A stretch of DNA of 25,038 nucleotides, from positions 1-25,038 of the IMG/VR virus record IMGVR_UViG_3300037586_005309; one strand, given 5' to 3'. Source of the stretch: a virus. The notes beneath the pieces were generated by a model. That model made no database searches and was not told the DNA's origin. It was given only the letters and a program-made list of their open reading frames with translations. Positions within the stretch are counted from its first letter, which is position 1, and every line of letters starts with the position of its first letter. Positions 7,274 through 16,870 of the stretch are shown here, piece after piece. The position numbers and the translations under genes were made by a program.

Positions 7274-10246
7274 ATGCCTGTTGATAGATTTAGATTTGTT
7301 TCGCCGGGCGTTTTCATTAATGAAATCGATCAGTCACAAACGCCCCAACGCGGAGCAGTCCCACCGGGCCCTGCGATTATTGGACGCAGCGCTCATGGGC
7401 CCGCAATGCTTCCGACCACTGTTGGTTCGTTTGACGAGTTCGTTCAAGTGTTCGGAAACCCTCTTCCTGGCGGCGAAGGTGGAGACGTTTGGAGAGATGG
7501 AAACAGGGCGGCCACCACTTACGCGGCATACGCTGCTCAGGCTTATCTAGCCAATAACGGCCCTGTCACTTTTGTGCGATTGCTTGGAGACCAAAGCCCA
7601 ATCGCCTCCTCCGCTCAATACGCCAAAGCCGGCTGGCTATATCCTAGTACCGCCCAAGATACTGTTGGCGGCGTCTATGGTCTATTTATAACGAACTCGG
7701 GTTCAGTTGCGTCCCCGCACGTTTCCGGTACCCTGGCGGCTTTGTGGTATTTGTCCAGTTCCGCCACCATTGAACTTATAGGTCCAGGACTAACCGGCGC
7801 CACCGCCGGATCCATCGTTCAAGGCAACGCGCTTATGGTAAACACGACTAGTTTGAGTTCGGGCGGTTCAACTGCGCAAGAGTTTAAAGTAAAAATCAAG
7901 GCCGGCGGCTCTGTCCAGGCGGAGACTACTTTTAACTTTGACGACACTAGTGGCCGATACATTAGAAAGGTTTTTAATACTAACCCCCAGATGGTTAATC
8001 CTAACATTACCACAACTACGAATAGGGAATACTATTTCTTAGGCGAAAGTTTTGAACGAAACATTAATGATTCGTTTAATTATGGAACCGATACGCTTTA
8101 CGGTGTTATTTTGGGCTTGTCCGCTTCTTGTTCTGATTTTCGGACGTCCTTTAAGCTGCCGCAGACGCCCCCTATTATTGCACAAGATGGTGGCGCTAGC
8201 GGGAGCTTTAATATTAACAATAGCGAAAGAGAGCTTTTCGTAGTAGTTGCCCAGGACGAAGCTGAGTGGGCACAGAATAATCTTAAAATATCTATTACAG
8301 ATATTAAAGACTCTCCCAATCCATCGTTTGAGCCATTCGGAACCTTCAGTCTCCAAGTGCGCGCCTTTGATGATAATGATAATAATCCAGTTGTTCTAGA
8401 AGAATATAGTAGGCTTAATCTCAACCCTAACTCGCCGAACTATATTGCTCGGAGAATAGGAGACATGCATGTGAGCTGGGATGCTGTTAATAAGAAGTAT
8501 AATCACCTGGGCCAATATGAAAATCAATCCAGATACATACGCATGAGTATGAACAATGATATTGATATGGGTCGCGGCGGTGAAGACTGGCTTCCCTTTG
8601 GTTTTAAGGGTGTTCCCAAGTATGAAGGGTTTAACTTCCGCACCGGCTCGACCGAGTGGTCTGATTTGGATCTCAATGTATCCTCCTCGGGTGCCAAGAC
8701 CGTAGTCGTGGAAGGAAGCGGCTCTATTATGAGCGCCTCCTGGGTCGACCCATCCTTCCCCCTTGTAAATGTTGGCGGCGACGGCACCGCCTCCCCCGGC
8801 ACGATACATATCACTGCTAGCTTTCAGTTTCCGGTACTTCCACTGCGGGTATCTTCTTCTGACGGGGGCCTTTTGGACAAGACAAATGCATACTGGGGCC
8901 TGCAAACTACGAAGAGTCGCACCTCTTTGGTGCCCGACAACTCTATCAAAGATATGTTGCGCATGCGTCCCATCGCTTTTGGTCGGATAACCCCCACTAG
9001 TGTATGCGAGCGAGGCCCTGGGTTCTCTTTGGATAATCTTTGCTGGGACGTCTCTACCGCTCAGGTAGGATATAGCGGCAGCTTAACCCGCGGGTTCGTC
9101 GATGGAACCAGCGCTGCAGCCGTTAAAACTATCGGCGGCGGACGACGCGCCGGCCGGTCTATGACCGCGATTAGCAGCTCCTATACAGAGCCTCTTAATC
9201 GTGGATACGATCGCTTTACGGTACCGATGTTTGGCGGCTTTGATGGCTTTAATATTAGTGATTCAGAGCCCTTCACGAACTCAACAACTTTGGGTGGTGA
9301 AGCTCCTTCGACTGCCCCAGAGGATAAAGACTACGCTATGCTTTATACTGTAAAGAAAGCAATCGATACAGTCGCCGATCCGGACATGGTGAATATTAAC
9401 TTGGCCTCTGTTCCGGGCATGACCCCGCGAGCAGTTACCGATCACTTATTGAATATGGCTTTGGATCGCTCTGACACTTTGGCAGTTATCGACCTGGAGG
9501 GCGGCTACACTCCGGCTACGGAAAATTCGAGTAGCTTTGTTGACCGCCTCGGAAGTGCTGCCACCACGATTACTAATATTAAGACACGCGCTTTAAACAA
9601 TAGTTATGGAGCGGCTTACTATCCATGGGTGCAGATGCGCGATACTCTGGTGGGTACCCGCGTATGGCTGCCCCCCTCTGTGGCGGCTCTTGGTACCTAT
9701 GGTTCCTCTGCGCGCTCATCAGAACTGTGGTTTGCGCCGGCTGGATTCAATCGAGGCGGCCTAAGTCGCGGCTCTGCTGGCCTTCCCACAACTTCGGTTT
9801 TGGAGAGGCTTACAAGCAAACAACGAGATGATCTTTATGAGGTTAACATTAATCCCATTGCATCATTTCCGTCCGAGGGTATTGTGGTGTTTGGTCAAAA
9901 AACTTTGCAAGCCACCCCATCAGCCCTCGATCGCGTGAATGTACGGAGGCTCCTGATCTTCTTGAAGAAGCAGATATCCAGGATTTCTACTAGGATTTTG
10001 TTTGATCCCAATATTGACGTAACATGGAATCGCTTCTTGGCAGAGGTACAACCTCTTCTAAGGTCGGTAAAATCTCGGTATGGCTTGAGTGAATATAGAG
10101 TCATACTAGATGAGACCACAACGACTCCCGATTTGGTTGATAGAAACATCATGTACGCCAAGGTGTTTTTGAAGCCTACGAGAGCTATTGAGTTTATTGC
10201 TTTGGACTTTATCATCACGCGCTCAGGAGCTTCGTTCGATGATTAA
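7274..10246 (+). CDS. 18: Tail sheath protein (gp18-like), enlarged
   Basis: The 990-residue product is the contractile sheath. It starts with RFRFVSPGVFINEIDQSQTP, the classic sheath N-terminus, and GPAIIGRSAHGPA follows. GGFDGFN occurs near residue 651. The conserved sheath C-terminal domain starts near 845 (LTSKQRDDLYEVNINPIASF) and holds VNVRRLLIFLKKQISRIS, then TWNRFLAEVQPLLRSVKSRYGL and ALDFIITRSG. T4 gp18 has 659 residues, so about 330 are extra, most likely in the middle (about 120-640), which carries several beta-rich, Ser/Gly-rich segments that probably face outwards. A strong ribosome binding site and its own promoter-like boxes fit high expression. The tube gene follows, the standard order for myoviruses. 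Confidence 0.95.
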   Translation: MPVDRFRFVSPGVFINEIDQSQTPQRGAVPPGPAIIGRSAHGPAMLPTTVGSFDEFVQVFGNPLPGGEGGDVWRDGNRAATTYAAYAAQAYLANNGPVTFVRLLGDQSPIASSAQYAKAGWLYPSTAQDTVGGVYGLFITNSGSVASPHVSGTLAALWYLSSSATIELIGPGLTGATAGSIVQGNALMVNTTSLSSGGSTAQEFKVKIKAGGSVQAETTFNFDDTSGRYIRKVFNTNPQMVNPNITTTTNREYYFLGESFERNINDSFNYGTDTLYGVILGLSASCSDFRTSFKLPQTPPIIAQDGGASGSFNINNSERELFVVVAQDEAEWAQNNLKISITDIKDSPNPSFEPFGTFSLQVRAFDDNDNNPVVLEEYSRLNLNPNSPNYIARRIGDMHVSWDAVNKKYNHLGQYENQSRYIRMSMNNDIDMGRGGEDWLPFGFKGVPKYEGFNFRTGSTEWSDLDLNVSSSGAKTVVVEGSGSIMSASWVDPSFPLVNVGGDGTASPGTIHITASFQFPVLPLRVSSSDGGLLDKTNAYWGLQTTKSRTSLVPDNSIKDMLRMRPIAFGRITPTSVCERGPGFSLDNLCWDVSTAQVGYSGSLTRGFVDGTSAAAVKTIGGGRRAGRSMTAISSSYTEPLNRGYDRFTVPMFGGFDGFNISDSEPFTNSTTLGGEAPSTAPEDKDYAMLYTVKKAIDTVADPDMVNINLASVPGMTPRAVTDHLLNMALDRSDTLAVIDLEGGYTPATENSSSFVDRLGSAATTITNIKTRALNNSYGAAYYPWVQMRDTLVGTRVWLPPSVAALGTYGSSARSSELWFAPAGFNRGGLSRGSAGLPTTSVLERLTSKQRDDLYEVNINPIASFPSEGIVVFGQKTLQATPSALDRVNVRRLLIFLKKQISRISTRILFDPNIDVTWNRFLAEVQPLLRSVKSRYGLSEYRVILDETTTTPDLVDRNIMYAKVFLKPTRAIEFIALDFIITRSGASFDD

Positions 10247-10305
10247 TAAAAAGAGGCTGATTTGGAATACTGCACTAATTAACGTAAACGGGAGTAACTA
10301 AGACA

Positions 10306-10869
10306 ATGGTGGGACAATTTTGGAATAACGCGGCCATGGAGCCAAAGCGATCACATCGTTTTTTGGTTGAATTTAATCTACCGGGACCAGCCGGAGGAAC
10401 TACGACGCAGATTTATGCTCGAAAAGTAACCAAGCCGGCCTACGATATTGGTCAGTCCGAACATAAGTTTTTGGGACAAACCTATTACTATCCCGGGGCC
10501 ATTACCTGGAATGACGTGGGAATCACATTGATTAACTCCGCCACTCCTGATTTCGATCTGCTGTTACAGATCCTACTAGAAAACGCGGGGTATGTTAACC
10601 CCGATGGCGTTTCGACTGCCCCGAGCGGTGTCACAGATGCCAGTACTGTCAACAAATTTGATGCTACGAATGCGATAGGAAGAGTTTTGATTAAAGAACT
10701 CAATGGTGAAGGTGCTCCTATTGGAGAATATGAGTTAAACAATGCCTGGGTTAAGGGCATAGCGTACGGCGATTTGGACTATGGCTCAGAAGAGCTCCTA
10801 ACCGTCGACGTAACCCTGCGGTACGACTGGGCTACTTATAATAACCAACCAGGCCGCGCTAGCGGGTAG
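10306..10869 (+). CDS. 19: Tail tube protein (gp19-like)
   Basis: The 187-residue product (T4 gp19 has 163) makes the inner tube through which DNA passes. The start MVGQFWNNAAMEPKRSHRFL matches the 'W...-ePkR..RF.v' opening of the family. YARKVTKPAYDIG, the GAITWNDVGITLINSATPDF segment and the final LTVDVTLRYDWATY strand are also typical. GGGAG lies about ten bases before the ATG. The gene sits 59 bases after the sheath gene; I see no promoter box or terminator in that gap, so it is probably transcribed with the sheath. Confidence 0.92.
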   Translation: MVGQFWNNAAMEPKRSHRFLVEFNLPGPAGGTTTQIYARKVTKPAYDIGQSEHKFLGQTYYYPGAITWNDVGITLINSATPDFDLLLQILLENAGYVNPDGVSTAPSGVTDASTVNKFDATNAIGRVLIKELNGEGAPIGEYELNNAWVKGIAYGDLDYGSEELLTVDVTLRYDWATYNNQPGRASG

Positions 10870-10878
10870 GGCTAAACA

Positions 10879-11709
10879 ATGCCTTTTTGGCAAGGATGGA
10901 ACGATCCCTACACTGAGCCAAAACGACCTTTTCGGTTTGTGGTACCGATGCCAGTGTTCGTTCCTCACGGCAGATTCGCCGGCATCAAAAAAATAAGCGA
11001 TATCGTAGAAGATGATTTAACTAGGGTCGTTAATCCGATGTACAATGCCGCATATCCAGGGGATGGCGGCGCATGGCCTGAATTTTTTGCTACAAGTTGC
11101 ACTAAGCCGGGTTTTAAAACAGACGTTTATAAATCTGATAACGTTCTTGACGGTTTCCCTAAGATTTTCCATGGGCAAGCAACGTTCTGGAATTTTGATC
11201 CTGTTACGGTAGAACTCATTGACACATACGACCAGGACTTGGCGTCCACCCTAACGACTTATTTGCTTGCTGGCTCTGGTGTGAAGCCCAACCACGTCCA
11301 GGGGACTGCCGTTGCGCGCCTCGAAGGAAAATTGATTCCCTTTTCGAATTGTATGACTGGAGAGTCTAGATTTGAAATAATTGAACTACTAGAGCACACA
11401 GCAAATCCTGGCGCGCCCCTCCAAAAGAAATTTAAGGCCCGTAAATATATTTTACATAATCCTTATATTAGTTCAGTAGATTTTGGAACATTTAACAGCA
11501 CCGATGAAGATTTTACCAAAGTTAAAATTACGCTGGCGTATGATTCATATGATTACGAGTTTATTCATCACCGCGGCGCCGCCACAGAATCCCACGACAA
11601 CCGAATTAGAATTAGACGCGACGCGCTGAGCGGCAGACACCACAGAAATCTTCGGAAGTATGAGATCACCCCCCGGCAAAGGCGCGCCCTTGCCGAGGAA
11701 GGGTCTTAA
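10879..11709 (+). CDS. Second tube-fold protein, gp19 paralogue (possibly gp54-like)
   Basis: This 276-residue protein is visibly related to the tube protein before it. Its opening FWQGWNDPYTEPKRPFRFVV parallels FWNNAAMEPKRSHRFLVEF. The middle ATFWNFDPVTVELIDTYDQD parallels AITWNDVGITLINSATPDF. The end YILHNPYISSVDFG...VKITLAYDSYDY parallels YELNNAWVKGIAYG...VDVTLRYDWATY. It has insertions between these blocks and a basic tail (residues about 240-276, rich in Arg and His) the tube protein lacks. In T4 the tube initiator gp54 has the tube fold, so this could be the initiator or an end-of-tube protein; it could also be a minor tube subunit. It starts 9 bases after the tube stop, at a TAGGGCTAAA junction that recurs before the tape measure gene. 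Confidence 0.7.
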   Translation: MPFWQGWNDPYTEPKRPFRFVVPMPVFVPHGRFAGIKKISDIVEDDLTRVVNPMYNAAYPGDGGAWPEFFATSCTKPGFKTDVYKSDNVLDGFPKIFHGQATFWNFDPVTVELIDTYDQDLASTLTTYLLAGSGVKPNHVQGTAVARLEGKLIPFSNCMTGESRFEIIELLEHTANPGAPLQKKFKARKYILHNPYISSVDFGTFNSTDEDFTKVKITLAYDSYDYEFIHHRGAATESHDNRIRIRRDALSGRHHRNLRKYEITPRQRRALAEEGS

Positions 11710-11777: not shown

Positions 11778-12653
11778 TTGTCAATCCGAAACAATGAAGA
11801 TCGGTTTTCGGCCCCACAGCCGGATGCTGATCCCCCCGCACAAACACTACAAGAAGAGGGAACGCCCAGCAACCCCTTTTCGTTTGTCGTGCCCACTGAG
11901 TTTGTAGAACTTCCTAGCAGAGGAGAGTTTTATCCAACGTCGCACCCGTTACACAATCAGGAAACTATTGAAATACGTTATATGACCGCCAAGGAAGAAG
12001 ATATTTTAACCTCTCAAAGCCTGCTGGAAAAGGGGCTAGCCCTGGACAGATTGCTTGCTAATCTTATTGTAGACAAGCGTATCAAGCCAGAGGCTCTTTT
12101 AAGTGGCGATAGAAACGCTATTTTAATTGCCGCTCGAAAATCTGGCTACGGCGCAGACTACAATACAAAAGTCGCGTGCCCCCACTGTGGCGAATCTGAT
12201 ACTTATTTTTATGATCTAGAAAATGCTGAAGTAGTTTCTTCGCCCAACGATGAAAAATTGAAAGAGCTAGGAATAGTTCGCAATGAGGAAAATAACTTTG
12301 TAGTTACTCTTCCCAATAATCCGGTGGAGCTTACTTTTAAACTCCTAACTGGAAAAGAAGAGAACCTTCTCGTCAGGACTGCGGAGAAGCGTAAGAGGAA
12401 AAAGCAAGGAGACCACCTTATTACCGATCAACTTAAGTTAATGATCGTCTCTATTAACGAGTACACCGAAGCCCCCCTCATTGATAAGTTTGCTGAGACT
12501 ATGACATTGCCGGATGCAAGATTTTTGAGAGATATATATAGAAAAGTAACTCCCGCGATTGATTTGCGAAAGGAGTTCGTTTGTGACCAATGCAGTCACG
12601 TGGACGAAATCGACTTTCCCTTTACAACCGACTTTTTTTGGCCTCAACAATGA
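11778..12653 (+). CDS. 26: Baseplate protein, T4 gp26 family
   Basis: The 291-residue product starts at TTG, chosen because GAGAGG lies just upstream and no other start in this frame fits. The opening FVELPSRGEFYPTSHPLHN and the helix MTAKEEDILTSQSLLEKGLALDRLL are the signature of the T4 baseplate hub family that includes gp26 (T4 gp26 has 208 residues). CPHC at 134-137 and CDQC at 269-272 look like a zinc ribbon. The gene lies between the tube genes and the tape measure, the slot used for tail-assembly chaperones in other long-tailed phages. Its end contains a seven-T run from which a +1 slip would continue into the small ORF downstream. Confidence 0.82.
   Translation: MSIRNNEDRFSAPQPDADPPAQTLQEEGTPSNPFSFVVPTEFVELPSRGEFYPTSHPLHNQETIEIRYMTAKEEDILTSQSLLEKGLALDRLLANLIVDKRIKPEALLSGDRNAILIAARKSGYGADYNTKVACPHCGESDTYFYDLENAEVVSSPNDEKLKELGIVRNEENNFVVTLPNNPVELTFKLLTGKEENLLVRTAEKRKRKKQGDHLITDQLKLMIVSINEYTEAPLIDKFAETMTLPDARFLRDIYRKVTPAIDLRKEFVCDQCSHVDEIDFPFTTDFFWPQQ
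12633..12639 (+). promoter_or_regulatory. Candidate +1 frameshift site (seven T)
   Basis: In the gp26 frame the codons read GAC TTT TTT TGG, four codons before the stop at 12651-12653. The phenylalanine tRNA in the second TTT could move one base forward and still pair with TTT. The new frame reads GGC CTC AAC AAT GAA TAC ATG and continues with the small ORF. Whether it happens is inferred. Confidence 0.35.
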
Positions 12654-12657
12654 ATAC

Positions 12658-12873
12658 ATGGAGATTGTCTATGAGCAGTTCTTCATCTTAAAATACCACG
12701 GAGGCTGGAGCTTTACAGAGGCATACAACTTACCAGTTCAACTAAGAGAGTGGTTTCTTAGAAGACTGATTAAGCAGAAAAAAGATGAGCAAGAGGCCAT
12801 GGAAGATGCTTCTGGTTCCGGTACTGGGTCACGACACCAATTGGGCCCCGGCTCCAAGCCGCCTAAGCTTTAA
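12658..12873 (+). CDS. Small gp51-like baseplate assembly protein or frameshift extension of gp26
   Basis: From the ATG at 12658 the product has 71 residues: MEIVYEQFFILKYHGGWSFT, EAYNLPVQLREWFLRRLIKQ, then an acidic and Gly/Ser/Pro-rich tail. The ATG comes 4 bases after the gp26-like stop but has no Shine-Dalgarno match, so it would rely on coupling. The frame is open further upstream, back to an ATG at 12559, overlapping the gp26-like gene, and a +1 slip at the T run would join the two into one protein of about 363 residues. The YHGGWSF..AYNLP..LR.WF block reminds me of the short protein that follows gp26 in marine T4-like phages and is often labelled gp51 (hub assembly catalyst), but I am not sure of that family link. 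Confidence 0.6.
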   Translation: MEIVYEQFFILKYHGGWSFTEAYNLPVQLREWFLRRLIKQKKDEQEAMEDASGSGTGSRHQLGPGSKPPKL

Positions 12874-12893: not shown

Positions 12894-12918
12894 TTTGTAT
12901 AACTGCGAGAAGCCTCCT

Positions 12919-13260
12919 GTGAATGATAAAAGTCTATCTCCGATAGTAGTTAATTTGAACGTCATGAAGGAAGGAAACTTGAATGAAAGTTTCCTTACTA
13001 TGTTTGGTGGCGCCATTGAAATGCTACTAACACGCATGTTTGGCGGCACCGATGTGACGGCCCCTCGATGGGCTAGTGTTCGTGGCACCCCTTCGCAGAT
13101 CGCATCATTTGGCGATGCTCTTTCTAGAGAAAAAAACTATATGGAAACCTTTATGAAGCACGGCCTCAATGATCCTCGTAGTTTTCGTAGTCGGCACGAG
13201 CTTGAAAAAGCGGTTGCGGCCTTTGAAAAAGAAACCGGCTTAAAATGGCCGTTTAAGTAG
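12919..13260 (+). CDS. Unknown small protein before the tape measure
   Basis: From the GTG at 12919 the product has 113 residues. A TTG at 12895 in the same frame would sit inside the promoter-like box, so I reject it; an ATG at 12964 is also possible. The upstream GAGAAG is only a weak ribosome binding site, so the start is uncertain. The protein has a hydrophobic segment (ESFLTMFGGAIEMLLTRMFGG, about residues 20-41), then a soluble helical half ending in ELEKAVAAFEKETGLKWPFK. I do not recognise a family. Its place between the gp26-like pair and the tape measure suggests a role in tail assembly. A 10-bp perfect inverted repeat lies in its early codons. Confidence 0.65.
   Translation: MNDKSLSPIVVNLNVMKEGNLNESFLTMFGGAIEMLLTRMFGGTDVTAPRWASVRGTPSQIASFGDALSREKNYMETFMKHGLNDPRSFRSRHELEKAVAAFEKETGLKWPFK
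12971..12996 (+). repeat. Perfect inverted repeat, 10-bp arms, 6-base loop
   Basis: AAGGAAACTT (12971-12980) pairs with AAGTTTCCTT (12987-12996) around GAATGA. It begins 52 bases after the chosen GTG and just after the alternative ATG at 12964, so it could slow early translation or shield the 5' side. No T run follows. Confidence 0.45.
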
Positions 13261-13269
13261 GGCTAAAGC

Positions 13270-15789
13270 ATGGTCGACCCCAAAGAACTCACTGACGCCG
13301 AAAGACTTAAGGCCCTCATGGATCAAATTAATGAGGGCGGTAGCCGGCGCATAGCCTTATTGGAACAAGAGAAGGCATTTCTGGGAGAAACCCGGGCGTT
13401 CACAGAGTCACAGCAAGAGCTTCTCAATATTAACCTCAACCTAGAACAATCACGCCTTCAAGTGCTACAACAGCAAACGGCGAAGAGCGTTGAAAAACTC
13501 TACAACATAAACTCAGAGATCAACACACTGCGCGAGACCGAGAGGATCAACAAAAAGCTCACGGAAAATGAAGAGGACAGGCTATGGACCCTCAAGAGGC
13601 AGTCAGCTGAGCAGCAGAAGCTGGTTAGTCTGGCGATGGAGAAACTTCGAACCGACCGGCTCGCACAACAGGCAGGCGCCAACCTCGCTAGCGCTCAACA
13701 GAACTTCTATAAAACGACCTTGGGCGTAAGTGATGCCTGGAAGACGACACTTACGGGGGCCATTGTACAGTCCGGATTTAATGTTCAGAAGATGTGGCAG
13801 AACACAAAGGGGATGCTTACCGCTAGTAATATGCTGGGCTCTACATGGATGAAGATTGTGGAGATGACAATCAAGGCGACCAGCGAATATGATTCAATGG
13901 CGGCTAAGATTCGACAGATATCCCATGGCGGTACCGGCCTTAACAGTTTGCAACAACAAACGATGCGCGCCCACATTTCAATGCGCGAATTCGGCGTAAG
14001 CATTCAAGATGCCGGCCAATCAACCGAGTCGCTGCTCAGAAGTATGGCATCTTTTTCGGTATCCTCGGCTCAGACCCGCGAGGCTTTGATACGCCAAACA
14101 AATCTACTTCAGGAAGTGGGCGTTGGGGCACAAGGATCGGCTCAAGCATTTAACTTTATGGACAAGGGTCTAAATATGACGACCCAACAATCTATTCGAT
14201 TATCAAATCGTCTGTTTGGTTTGTCTAAGGCCCTTAAGCAGCCTCCCGATGTCATTTTCAAAGACTGGGAGCAGGCCTCTAATGAACTAGCCAAGTACGG
14301 TGATCGAATGTATGAAGTGTTCGCCGGATTGTCGGCACAGGCGAAGAACACTGGACTCGCCGTGAGCCAGCTTATTGGCATAGCAGCACAGTTTGATACG
14401 TTCGATCAGGCGGGGCAGGCAGTAGGCCGACTTAATGCTATTCTCGGCGGCCCGTATCTTAATGCTATTGAGATGGTATATGCGACAGAGTCTGAACGTA
14501 TCGCCGCGATGCGAGAGTCGATATCGGTTTCAGGCCGAGTATTTACCCAGCTTAGTCGTCACGAGCAACAGGCCATTGCAGCAGCTGCCGGTATTAGAGA
14601 CATGTCCCAAGCCGCGATGCTTTTTGGCGGGAGTTCGCAAACATTTGAACGAGCAGCCGCCAGCCAAGAGGCTTTAGAGAAGAAGGCCAGAGGATCTCAA
14701 AGCGCTCTGAACAAGTTAAAGATGGCTGCTTATGGGCTTGCGGTTAACCTGGCGCCGGTTGTAGAAAAGATGGTAGGTTTTCTAGATATACTAACAAGGA
14801 TTGCTTCACATCCTGTGGGTCGCTTCCTGGGCACCCTCATTATATCAGTTGCTGTATTGACTAAAGGAATAAATGCCGCGGTCTCGGCGGGGAAAGCAAT
14901 GAAGGAGGCGTTCGGTGTACTAAAAAACGTAACAGGGATGTACAATAACACTCTACGGTTTCTTAGTATAACACAGAGAACCAATAATCTTCGGACCCAA
15001 CGGGCAATTGCGGCCGAGACTACAGCTGGCGCCACCAGAATGAGTCTTACCGGTCCGACAGGGCTTTTGGCTCGAGCCAATATGAGGTTGGGAGCCAGCT
15101 GGGGGGCCGCCCTCGCCCCCCTCGCTGCGCTGCTAGTCGGATATTATGCAATGAAGGCCATCGCCCCGGCGCTTAGCAACAGTATGCGCATGATCGCCCA
15201 AAGCGTGAGTATCGCCGCTATTGCGTGGGCCGGCTTAAACATGGCCAAGCAGGGCTTCAACCCTGCGGCCCTGGCAGTGGGCGCCCTAGCCCTCGGCGCC
15301 TTCGTGGGATCCCTCCAGTCTGCCAAGAATAAGGCCCGGGCCTATGAAGAGGGAACGCCGGTAGAGGGAGCAGAGGCAGGCCTTGCCATCGTTGGTGAAG
15401 CCAAGAAGCGCGAGGGTGTCGTCGTCAATCTGGCCGAGGGGCAGCAGGTGCTCAACAATGAAAACACTGAGAAGGTTTTAGCCGCGGGTCACCGGCGCCC
15501 CCCGCGCCCTGAAGTCGAAGGCGAGATGGAAACGATGCCTGCGGCACAACCAGGCGGCATGACGGCCACGGTCCAGGCCGCGATCGCGGAGGCGCTCGCG
15601 CCTGTCGTCAGCGCCCTCCAAGCCATAGCCAGCACAAGCGCAACTGCAGCCGCCACGGGCCCAGTCACAACCGGAGCCGCTGCCGGAGCGCCGGTGGGAA
15701 CCGCAGTCAACCTCTACCTTGATAGGGGGGTCCTGGGCTCGGCGATGGTCGAATATCTCAATAGTGATTCTGAACTGGCGGCAAGATAG
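13270..15789 (+). CDS. Tape measure protein
   Basis: The 839-residue product sets tail length and runs through the tube. Residues 1-135 are a long charged coiled coil (LEQSRLQVLQQQTAKSVEKL and similar). The middle is helical and Ala/Gln/Ser-rich. Hydrophobic segments typical of tape measures lie near 497-545 (RFLGTLIISVAVLTKGINAA) and 610-680 (APLAALLVGYYAMK and NPAALAVGALALGAFVGSL). A common tape-measure end motif follows near 708: LAIVGEAKKREGVVVNLAEG then QQVLNN, the 'vGEaG.e.vv.lp.GaqVl' pattern. The tail is Ala/Pro/Gly-rich. T4 gp29 has 590 residues; since length scales with tail length, a longer tail than T4 is expected. The last 500 bases are markedly more G+C-rich than the rest. Confidence 0.88.
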   Translation: MVDPKELTDAERLKALMDQINEGGSRRIALLEQEKAFLGETRAFTESQQELLNINLNLEQSRLQVLQQQTAKSVEKLYNINSEINTLRETERINKKLTENEEDRLWTLKRQSAEQQKLVSLAMEKLRTDRLAQQAGANLASAQQNFYKTTLGVSDAWKTTLTGAIVQSGFNVQKMWQNTKGMLTASNMLGSTWMKIVEMTIKATSEYDSMAAKIRQISHGGTGLNSLQQQTMRAHISMREFGVSIQDAGQSTESLLRSMASFSVSSAQTREALIRQTNLLQEVGVGAQGSAQAFNFMDKGLNMTTQQSIRLSNRLFGLSKALKQPPDVIFKDWEQASNELAKYGDRMYEVFAGLSAQAKNTGLAVSQLIGIAAQFDTFDQAGQAVGRLNAILGGPYLNAIEMVYATESERIAAMRESISVSGRVFTQLSRHEQQAIAAAAGIRDMSQAAMLFGGSSQTFERAAASQEALEKKARGSQSALNKLKMAAYGLAVNLAPVVEKMVGFLDILTRIASHPVGRFLGTLIISVAVLTKGINAAVSAGKAMKEAFGVLKNVTGMYNNTLRFLSITQRTNNLRTQRAIAAETTAGATRMSLTGPTGLLARANMRLGASWGAALAPLAALLVGYYAMKAIAPALSNSMRMIAQSVSIAAIAWAGLNMAKQGFNPAALAVGALALGAFVGSLQSAKNKARAYEEGTPVEGAEAGLAIVGEAKKREGVVVNLAEGQQVLNNENTEKVLAAGHRRPPRPEVEGEMETMPAAQPGGMTATVQAAIAEALAPVVSALQAIASTSATAAATGPVTTGAAAGAPVGTAVNLYLDRGVLGSAMVEYLNSDSELAAR

Positions 15790-15790
15790 C

Positions 15791-16870
15791 ATGCCTAACA
15801 AAGCAACCCTTCAGAATGTTCCCGCGCTTTTGAGGAAGCAGGGCAAGGATGCAACCGCGATAACGATGGAACTCGGAACGGGCTGGAACGGCTCTGTTAC
15901 GAAGTTCTCGTACGATGGTGTATTTGCCGCGGTCTACAAGGGGGGCACCCTTCCCGGCTGTGATATATCAAGTCCCATAGTAAAACACTGGCTTAAGCGC
16001 GAACTTTTACCATTGCTGGCGAGCCAGATTAATAGCGGCGCGCCGCTTGTCGACGATATCAACACCGACTATCTTCAATTGGAGTATGTGGCTTTAAAAA
16101 AGAAGATTAAAATACCGGGCAGTTTAGTGGTGTTTTCCGACAAGTATGCGCCTTCGTGGAAAAAAGAAAATGTTTATGGACGAATGGATCCTATAGCCAC
16201 ATTTCAAGGCACTGGAAGAAGCTTTGATCTTACCTGGCAAATAAATATTACAGGTCATGATAAAACTGGTCTGCTTAAGGCCGTTTCAGATGTGGCTAAG
16301 TTTATGTATCCTACATACGATGTGACAAATACTGTAAAGGGCACCGGCACGATGCGCGCCCCCCCGCTTCTTCGGTTTACACTAATTAGTGGCGTCGATG
16401 GCACTAACTTATCTCTGATAAGAAACACTTTGGACCCAGCTCAGGGGCTTTTGGGGATTGTGGATAGCTTTTCCTACGGCTCCTTTGTGGCTGGCAAGGG
16501 CGGGGGCGGAGAAATTAATATGGGACGCACACTGGTTGGTAACGAAATAATAGCCGCACCCACCCACACTGATCTTAATTTTAGCGTAACCGTACTCCAT
16601 CAAGACGGCAAAGTGGGATGGACATGGTCTGACGACGGCTTGAGTATTAGTTTTGGGCAGGGGAAGGGCTTTCCCTATGGGTATGGCACGACAGTTCCAG
16701 GCCTCGCGGCTTACCAGACCCAACCCCCCGACCCGGCGGCTCCTACCGTGGTACAAAATAGCAGAGCTCAGGATGATGCTGCTGCTGATGCCTCCGCGGC
16801 GGCAACAGACAGCATAACTGATGCGTCCTTTCCAGGCGCCGAGATACTTATTGAGGAAGATGTGAGTTAG
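15791..16870 (+). CDS. Baseplate tube-associated protein (gp48/gp54 type)
   Basis: I start it at the ATG at 15791, one base after the tape measure stop, giving 359 residues; the in-frame ATG at 15719 lies inside the tape measure gene. YGRMDPIATFQGTGRSFDLT (about residues 131-150), followed by WQI, a helix (KAVSDVAKFMYPTY) and then APPLLRFTLISG and LLGIVDSFSYG, is the pattern of baseplate proteins that cap the hub and start the tube: 'yGRmDPi..yq.T.R.i.lsw.i ... lyP.Y ... aPPLl.v.f ... GllG.id.f'. T4 gp48 (364 residues) and gp54 occupy this place. The C-terminal 50 residues are Ala/Asp/Ser-rich and acidic. I am confident of the baseplate role, less so of which T4 protein it equals. Confidence 0.65.
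   Translation: MPNKATLQNVPALLRKQGKDATAITMELGTGWNGSVTKFSYDGVFAAVYKGGTLPGCDISSPIVKHWLKRELLPLLASQINSGAPLVDDINTDYLQLEYVALKKKIKIPGSLVVFSDKYAPSWKKENVYGRMDPIATFQGTGRSFDLTWQINITGHDKTGLLKAVSDVAKFMYPTYDVTNTVKGTGTMRAPPLLRFTLISGVDGTNLSLIRNTLDPAQGLLGIVDSFSYGSFVAGKGGGGEINMGRTLVGNEIIAAPTHTDLNFSVTVLHQDGKVGWTWSDDGLSISFGQGKGFPYGYGTTVPGLAAYQTQPPDPAAPTVVQNSRAQDDAAADASAAATDSITDASFPGAEILIEEDVS
16034..16047. repeat. 14-base perfect palindrome
   Basis: AGCGGCG followed by CGCCGCT is a perfect 14-base palindrome with a GGCGCGCC centre inside the gp48/54-type gene. It encodes Ser-Gly-Ala-Pro-Leu in frame and may be chance. Confidence 0.3.

Follow-up and report, generated by a model that had tools for sequence, protein, structure and literature searches.

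How are the two overlapping open reading frames (ORFs) that lie between the tail tube genes and the probable tape measure gene of the marine phage IMGVR_UViG_3300037586_005309 translated? We investigated this question in positions 1 to 25,038 of that IMG/VR record (the window, 25,038 nucleotides [nt], one strand). The first ORF encodes a protein resembling T4 gp26, and an earlier note on this DNA had proposed that a +1 programmed frameshift fuses it to the small ORF that follows. We consider it highly likely that the two ORFs yield a short tail assembly chaperone (TAC) and a longer, frameshift-fused form of it; the shift itself, the ratio of the products and their action as chaperones are what we infer here from sequence comparison.

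The putative shift site is a run of seven Ts at positions 12633 to 12639. The 3' end of the gp26-like ORF reads GAC TTT TTT TGG CCT CAA CAA TGA, and TTTTTTTGGCCT (12633 to 12644) is found four codons 5' of the stop, as the earlier note had described. The small ORF, which ends at 12873, is in the +1 frame relative to the gp26-like ORF and is open across the T-run, confirming that a one-base forward slip would enter its frame; its listed start at 12559 is merely the first TTG past an in-frame stop. Across the junction, the predicted fusion reads ...TDFF-GLNNEYMEIVYEQFF... Motif counts in the window were not decisive (TTTTTTTGGCC occurred once against 0.05 expected; TTTTTTTGG occurred twice against 0.64 expected, unremarkable alone); the weight of the T-run comes from its conservation among relatives.

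A scan of IMG/VR yielded 80 relatives of the gp26-like protein, and later seeds yielded 84 further loci, some of them overlapping the first set; PA5oct and SP-15, used as IMG/VR seeds, gave just 3 loci and 1 locus, respectively. A DNA-level search of phage records with the region gave no match. Clustering at 80% identity resulted in 107 gp26-like groups, in 101 of which the second ORF was in the +1 frame and in 6 of which it was in the -1 frame. The junction TTT TTT TGG CCT was present in nearly all relatives, at protein identities down to 35%. The shift site could be placed in 98 of the +1 groups and was TTTTTTTGGCCT in 79, TTTCTTTGGCCT in 8 and TTCTTTTGGCCT in 3; the remaining +1 groups carried single or double variants (e.g., TTTTTTTACCCT), most of which keep +1 re-pairing of the tRNA. 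Indeed, the P-site context for re-pairing one base 3' was UUU U or CUU U in 94 clusters and UUU C in a few more, with LIS04 (UUU A) as an exception, and the A-site codon was UGG in most clusters and UAC or UAU in a few. The overlap in which both frames are open varies by phage; the part common to all begins 2 nt ahead of the T-run and ends about 15 nt past the first T of the run. Moreover, the second Phe codon was TTT in all 90 groups with Phe at that place, compared to 670 TTT and 199 TTC elsewhere in the same genes, a bias with a probability of about 7e-11 if clusters are independent. Conservation of the T-run and of the frame relation, which the earlier note had named as a check, was therefore strongly positive.

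The small ORF could also be translated separately, either from the ATG at 12658, just past the gp26-like stop, or by re-initiation after that stop, in which case no fusion would be necessary. This ATG is also present in the relatives L003, L004 and L008, and in Atu_ph07 and LR756511 an ATG overlaps the stop. However, ATG 12658 lacks a Shine-Dalgarno sequence (upstream sequence, ggcctcaacaatgaatac), as the earlier note had claimed, while several other genes of the window have one (gagaggtg before 11778, aggagg before 2554). We counted start codons in the second frame between its upstream stop and 12 codons past the shift site. No ATG, GTG or TTG was found in 41 of the 98 +1 clusters, and 74 of them had no ATG. 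Fusion is thus the sole ordinary route in those 41 clusters, and separate initiation fails as a general explanation. Since the second frame is also open through the T-run in all clusters and natural in-frame fusions are known (see below), we regard separate translation as highly improbable.

The variant sites also bear on the kind of slippage. A -2 slip on the T-run would lead to the same frame as a +1 slip and to an otherwise identical fusion with one extra Phe, and UUU within seven Ts can re-pair two bases back. Neither TTTCTTTGG nor TTCTTTTGG permits such re-pairing, but both retain re-pairing at +1; the +1 slip is thus preferred, and a -2 slip appears very unlikely. Transcriptional slippage, in which RNA polymerase drops one U so that part of the mRNAs encode the fusion in frame, would suit a homopolymer of seven Ts and would give the same frame. 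Nevertheless, at least 12 clusters with a broken run (TTTCTTTGG in 8, TTCTTT in 4) keep the +1 arrangement, and the -1 lineages described below use the ribosomal heptamers A AAT TTC and T TTT TTC, leaving this explanation an extremely slim chance. Finally, an error in the T count is conceivable for a homopolymer on a single contig, and the genes would then be truly fused or truly separate. The arrangement of the window recurs, broken runs included, in several isolates and in some 150 independent contigs; this explanation has a negligible probability and is already refuted for the clade. The +1 ribosomal slip therefore remains our preferred reading.

Among isolates, the site is TTTTTTTGG in Microcystis phage Mel-JY01 and Rhodothermus phage RM378 and TTTCTTTGG in Flavobacterium phage immuto, each with the second ORF in the +1 frame; the predicted junction peptides are NFFGLSNEYR for Mel-JY01, ...ESFFGISYDSEEELEK for RM378 and ...SFLGLTPEYR for immuto. 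The +1 relation was also observed in Bacillus SP-15, Listeria LIS04, Streptococcus SagM-GXN1, Streptomyces BRock and the metagenomic LR756508, with a less clear slip codon. The Firmicute phages LIS04 (L085), SagM-GXN1 (L087) and SP-15 (L089) have in common NCC CGA TTY close to the gp26 stop, where a +1 slip may alternatively take place. Another gp26-like gene (L197:1281-1979), with TTT TTT CGT and a second ORF in +1, was found on a 125-kb contig of an Erysipelotrichaceae metagenome-assembled genome; this contig probably represents a large phage that was binned together with its host.

The slip direction is not the same throughout. The marine contigs L050, L054 and L102 to L111 have the codons TTC TTC TGG, with A AAT TTC, a canonical heptamer, upstream and with their second ORF in the -1 frame. 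The junction A AAT TTC TTC TGG CCT is invariant in this group, which is nested inside the +1 clade. These sequences suggest that one and the same orthologous site has changed its slip direction. PA5oct, Atu_ph07, L182 and LR756511 carry T TTT TTC and likewise have the second ORF in -1, so that either A AAT TTC or T TTT TTC, both canonical -1 heptamers, is present in each of the six -1 clusters. The earlier note had held that loss of the T-run or a changed frame relation in related phages would speak against a shift; what we observed is that the lineages without the T-run have moved the second ORF to -1 and have a -1 slippery heptamer. In a quick tree of the 107 groups, the L050/L107 branch falls within the +1 clade and well-supported branches require at least two changes of direction, while long branches leave the deeper part of this tree unsure.

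Bacterial injection systems may also make the chaperone pair by frameshifting, judging from the frames of their genes. The family DUF6760 is found in bacterial contractile-injection-type loci beside a gp26-like protein with Cys pairs, and in the Bacteroidota loci it is flanked by tail sheath and tube genes. The gp26-like and DUF6760 segments are fused in frame in L199, L200 and L204, which provides independent support for both segments as one protein. A shorter gp26-like ORF is found in L198, L201 and L202, with DUF6760 overlapping it in the -1 frame. L201 carries G GGA AAG without a start codon nearby; L198 has a G5 run, and in L202 an ATG overlaps the stop. The homology of DUF6760 to the small ORF is weak, and the segments of these loci are fused in frame or overlap in -1, whereas those of the window are in +1. 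In our judgement the chances are about even for a broader proposition: that the pair has been kept so long in a large, mostly uncultured phage group that the slip direction has changed from +1 to -1 or back at least two times on the tree, each time at the same Phe-Phe codons, with synonymous codons (TTT TTT T, T TTT TTC or A AAT TTC) setting the direction, and that bacterial contractile injection systems share the pair, by -1 slippage (L198, L201) or in-frame fusion (L199, L200, L204).

What are the two proteins? The gp26-like protein matched PF12322 (T4_baseplate; E 4e-14), PHROG150 (E 1e-17) and, by hhalign, the Straboviridae gp26 profile (prob 96.2, E 2e-9). T4 gp26 and residues 1 to 193 of T4 gp51 are paralogues (E 1.5e-22). 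Within the 282 columns of PHROG150, gp26 and the window protein stop near column 235 and gp51 reaches column 280, indicating that gp51 corresponds to gp26 plus about 55 residues and that the small ORF stands at the place of the gp51 tail. On the basis of these alignments, the small ORF would be the counterpart of the C-terminal extension that sets T4 gp51 apart from gp26, and it is not gp51 itself. The label "gp51-like" given to it in the earlier note thus holds for a C-terminal extension as in gp51 but not for a whole gp51 homologue, the equivalent of gp51 being the predicted fusion. Six of 68 small-ORF proteins matched phrog_634 (baseplate hub assembly catalyst, gp51-type family; best E 0.008), and 29 weakly matched DUF6760 (PF20546; best E 3e-5). 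AlphaFold2 models were good, with a predicted local distance difference test (pLDDT) score of 90.2 for the gp26-like protein and 84.6 for the small domain. Among viral models, the gp26-like model was similar to an uncharacterised phage protein (E 4e-20) and to hub assembly proteins of T4-like baseplates (E values as low as 2e-15). Its best match by probability in the PDB, and the sole one with a prob above 0.1, was the HK97 tail assembly chaperone 2ob9, a match of predicted fold that is suggestive and no more. The small domain had no match in a PDB fold search, and a sequence search of solved structures with gp26-like, small-ORF and gp51 profiles gave nothing meaningful.

Several observations, in addition to the ATG just past the gp26-like stop, weigh against a frameshift-made chaperone pair. 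A search for stimulators near the site gave a downstream folding z of -0.68, versus -0.25 for the control, with no clear RNA structure, and relatives had no conserved Shine-Dalgarno stimulator at the shift site. The exact slip codon was hard to place in LIS04, SP-15 and SagM-GXN1. The small ORF aligned to the gp51 tail in the right register with weak similarity (hhalign P 0.027), and the 2ob9 match (prob 0.44, template modeling score 0.53 by target, E 1.0) is not significant alone.

We propose that normal termination at 12651 would produce the short chaperone, TAC-N. With tRNA-Phe on the second UUU and UGG in the A site, a minority of ribosomes would slip +1 onto UUU and read on in the small ORF, producing the long form, TAC-NC, of 364 amino acids (aa). 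If the pair works as lambda G/GT do, the tape measure protein would be coated by many TAC-N, and few TAC-NC would contribute a helical C-terminal domain recruiting tube or initiator subunits. The G/GT-like role suggested in the earlier note agrees with published work identifying T4 gp26 and gp51 as tail assembly chaperones (as cited in PMC10885494 and PMC12846349), and the idea was already in print. The frameshift could also be real and the proteins baseplate-hub chaperones, the classical role of T4 gp26 and gp51, which are listed as hub assembly chaperones, gp51 being required but absent from the particle (PMC3004832). However, gp29, the tape measure of T4, belongs to the hub as well, which makes the two roles overlap, and in SP-15, LIS04 and immuto the chaperone locus adjoins the tape measure gene. 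We consider a hub role in place of a G/GT-like one unlikely.

The features of the locus are listed in Table 1. Its position between tube genes and tape measure gene, as stated in the earlier note, was borne out by PHROG4542 for the tube and by position for the tape measure, whose product had no significant family match. The two tube-like genes (10306-10872, 10879-11709) are in tandem, the second clearly diverged. The chaperone locus is separated from the probable tape measure gene by an ORF of 121 aa (12895-13263, listed from TTG) with no family match, and Mel-JY01 likewise has a small ORF at this position.

Table 1. Predicted features of the tail chaperone locus and neighboring genes (window coordinates)
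Feature	Position	Strand	Basis
gp26-like ORF, short tail assembly chaperone (TAC-N), 291 aa, zinc-ribbon CxxC pairs	11778..12653	+	PF12322, PHROG150, hhalign, AlphaFold2
Predicted shift site TTT TTT TGG CCT	12633..12644	+	tRNA-Phe: UUU 12636-12638 to UUU 12637-12639, +1
+1-frame segment after shift, C-terminal domain (TAC-C), 77 codons and stop, three predicted helices	12640..12873	+	+1 homologues, pLDDT
Predicted frameshift product TAC-NC, 364 aa	11778..12873 (11778-12638 joined to 12640-12873)	+	Translation; production predicted
Small-ORF ATG, most likely internal Met, not start	12658..12660	+	No Shine-Dalgarno; not conserved
Large protein upstream of tube, putative tail sheath by position	7274..10249	+	Sheath annotated there in named relatives
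Tail tube protein	10306..10872	+	PHROG4542 E 6e-21
Second tube-like protein	10879..11709	+	PHROG4542 E 3.5e-5
Probable tape measure protein	13270..15792	+	Size and position; tape measure annotated at homologous position in SP-15, LIS04, immuto

As far as sequence can tell, the marine phage very probably makes two versions of its chaperone from one gene by a one-base skip at seven Ts, and such a pair would span a large set of uncultured myovirus contigs plus isolates. Annotations of the isolates either list the second ORF as a hypothetical protein of its own or omit it, and pipelines miss the long form. A comparison of the +1 and -1 versions of one orthologous site would moreover serve as a natural experiment on the determinants of slip direction. 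Vladimirov, Gautam and Davidson (2022, Virology 566:9) reportedly named genes 26 and 51 and described frameshifting in several T4-like groups. In light of prior work on T4-like chaperones, the hypothesis of the earlier note is correct and essentially known; we found no description of the clade-wide +1 signal or of +1/-1 switching, and +1 cases may be in that 2022 study.

The slip predicted here resembles that of E. coli prfB (release factor 2; CUU UGA), in which the P-site codon re-pairs on UUU one base on, and the CTT T variant of the clade is the same slip. The A site of prfB is, however, a stop with an upstream Shine-Dalgarno stimulator, whereas that of the window is the sense codon UGG and no such stimulator was found. 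A +1 tail or chaperone frameshift is known in SPP1. The tail chaperone frameshift of HSTV-2 is "very likely +1" (PMC5009743); both share the direction, but their proteins are unrelated to those of the window and the slip codon is different as far as known. Lambda G/GT and P2 E/E+E' are alike in having a short second domain but slip -1 and show no significant sequence relation: lambda T and P2 E' did not match the small-domain profile significantly, P2 E' sharing a faint W..E.Y pattern with it (hhalign P 0.017). T4-like TAC-N/TAC-NC have a homologous short protein, and their short and long forms share the N-terminal part. Some T4-like phages have one short gene and one long fused gene (PMC10885494), and the signals given for TAC-N genes of this phage group are of the polyT -1 type (PMC12846349), unlike the predicted +1 slip at UUU-UGG in the window phage. 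A 2016 review still gave T4 as the exception to G-T frameshifting (PMC5009743). T4 itself was ruled out as a frameshift case, since gene 25 follows gene 26 and gene 51 is on the other strand. RB43 and Klebsiella phage RCIP0002 (L100, L101) carry a gp51-like and a gp26-like gene in tandem on the same strand, which would fit an origin of the T4 pair by duplication. In T4 the short form thus comes from gene 26 and the long form from gene 51, and in the window phage both would come from one gene with a predicted shift, so that T4 genes 26 and 51 would become the exception, with gene duplication in place of frameshifting.
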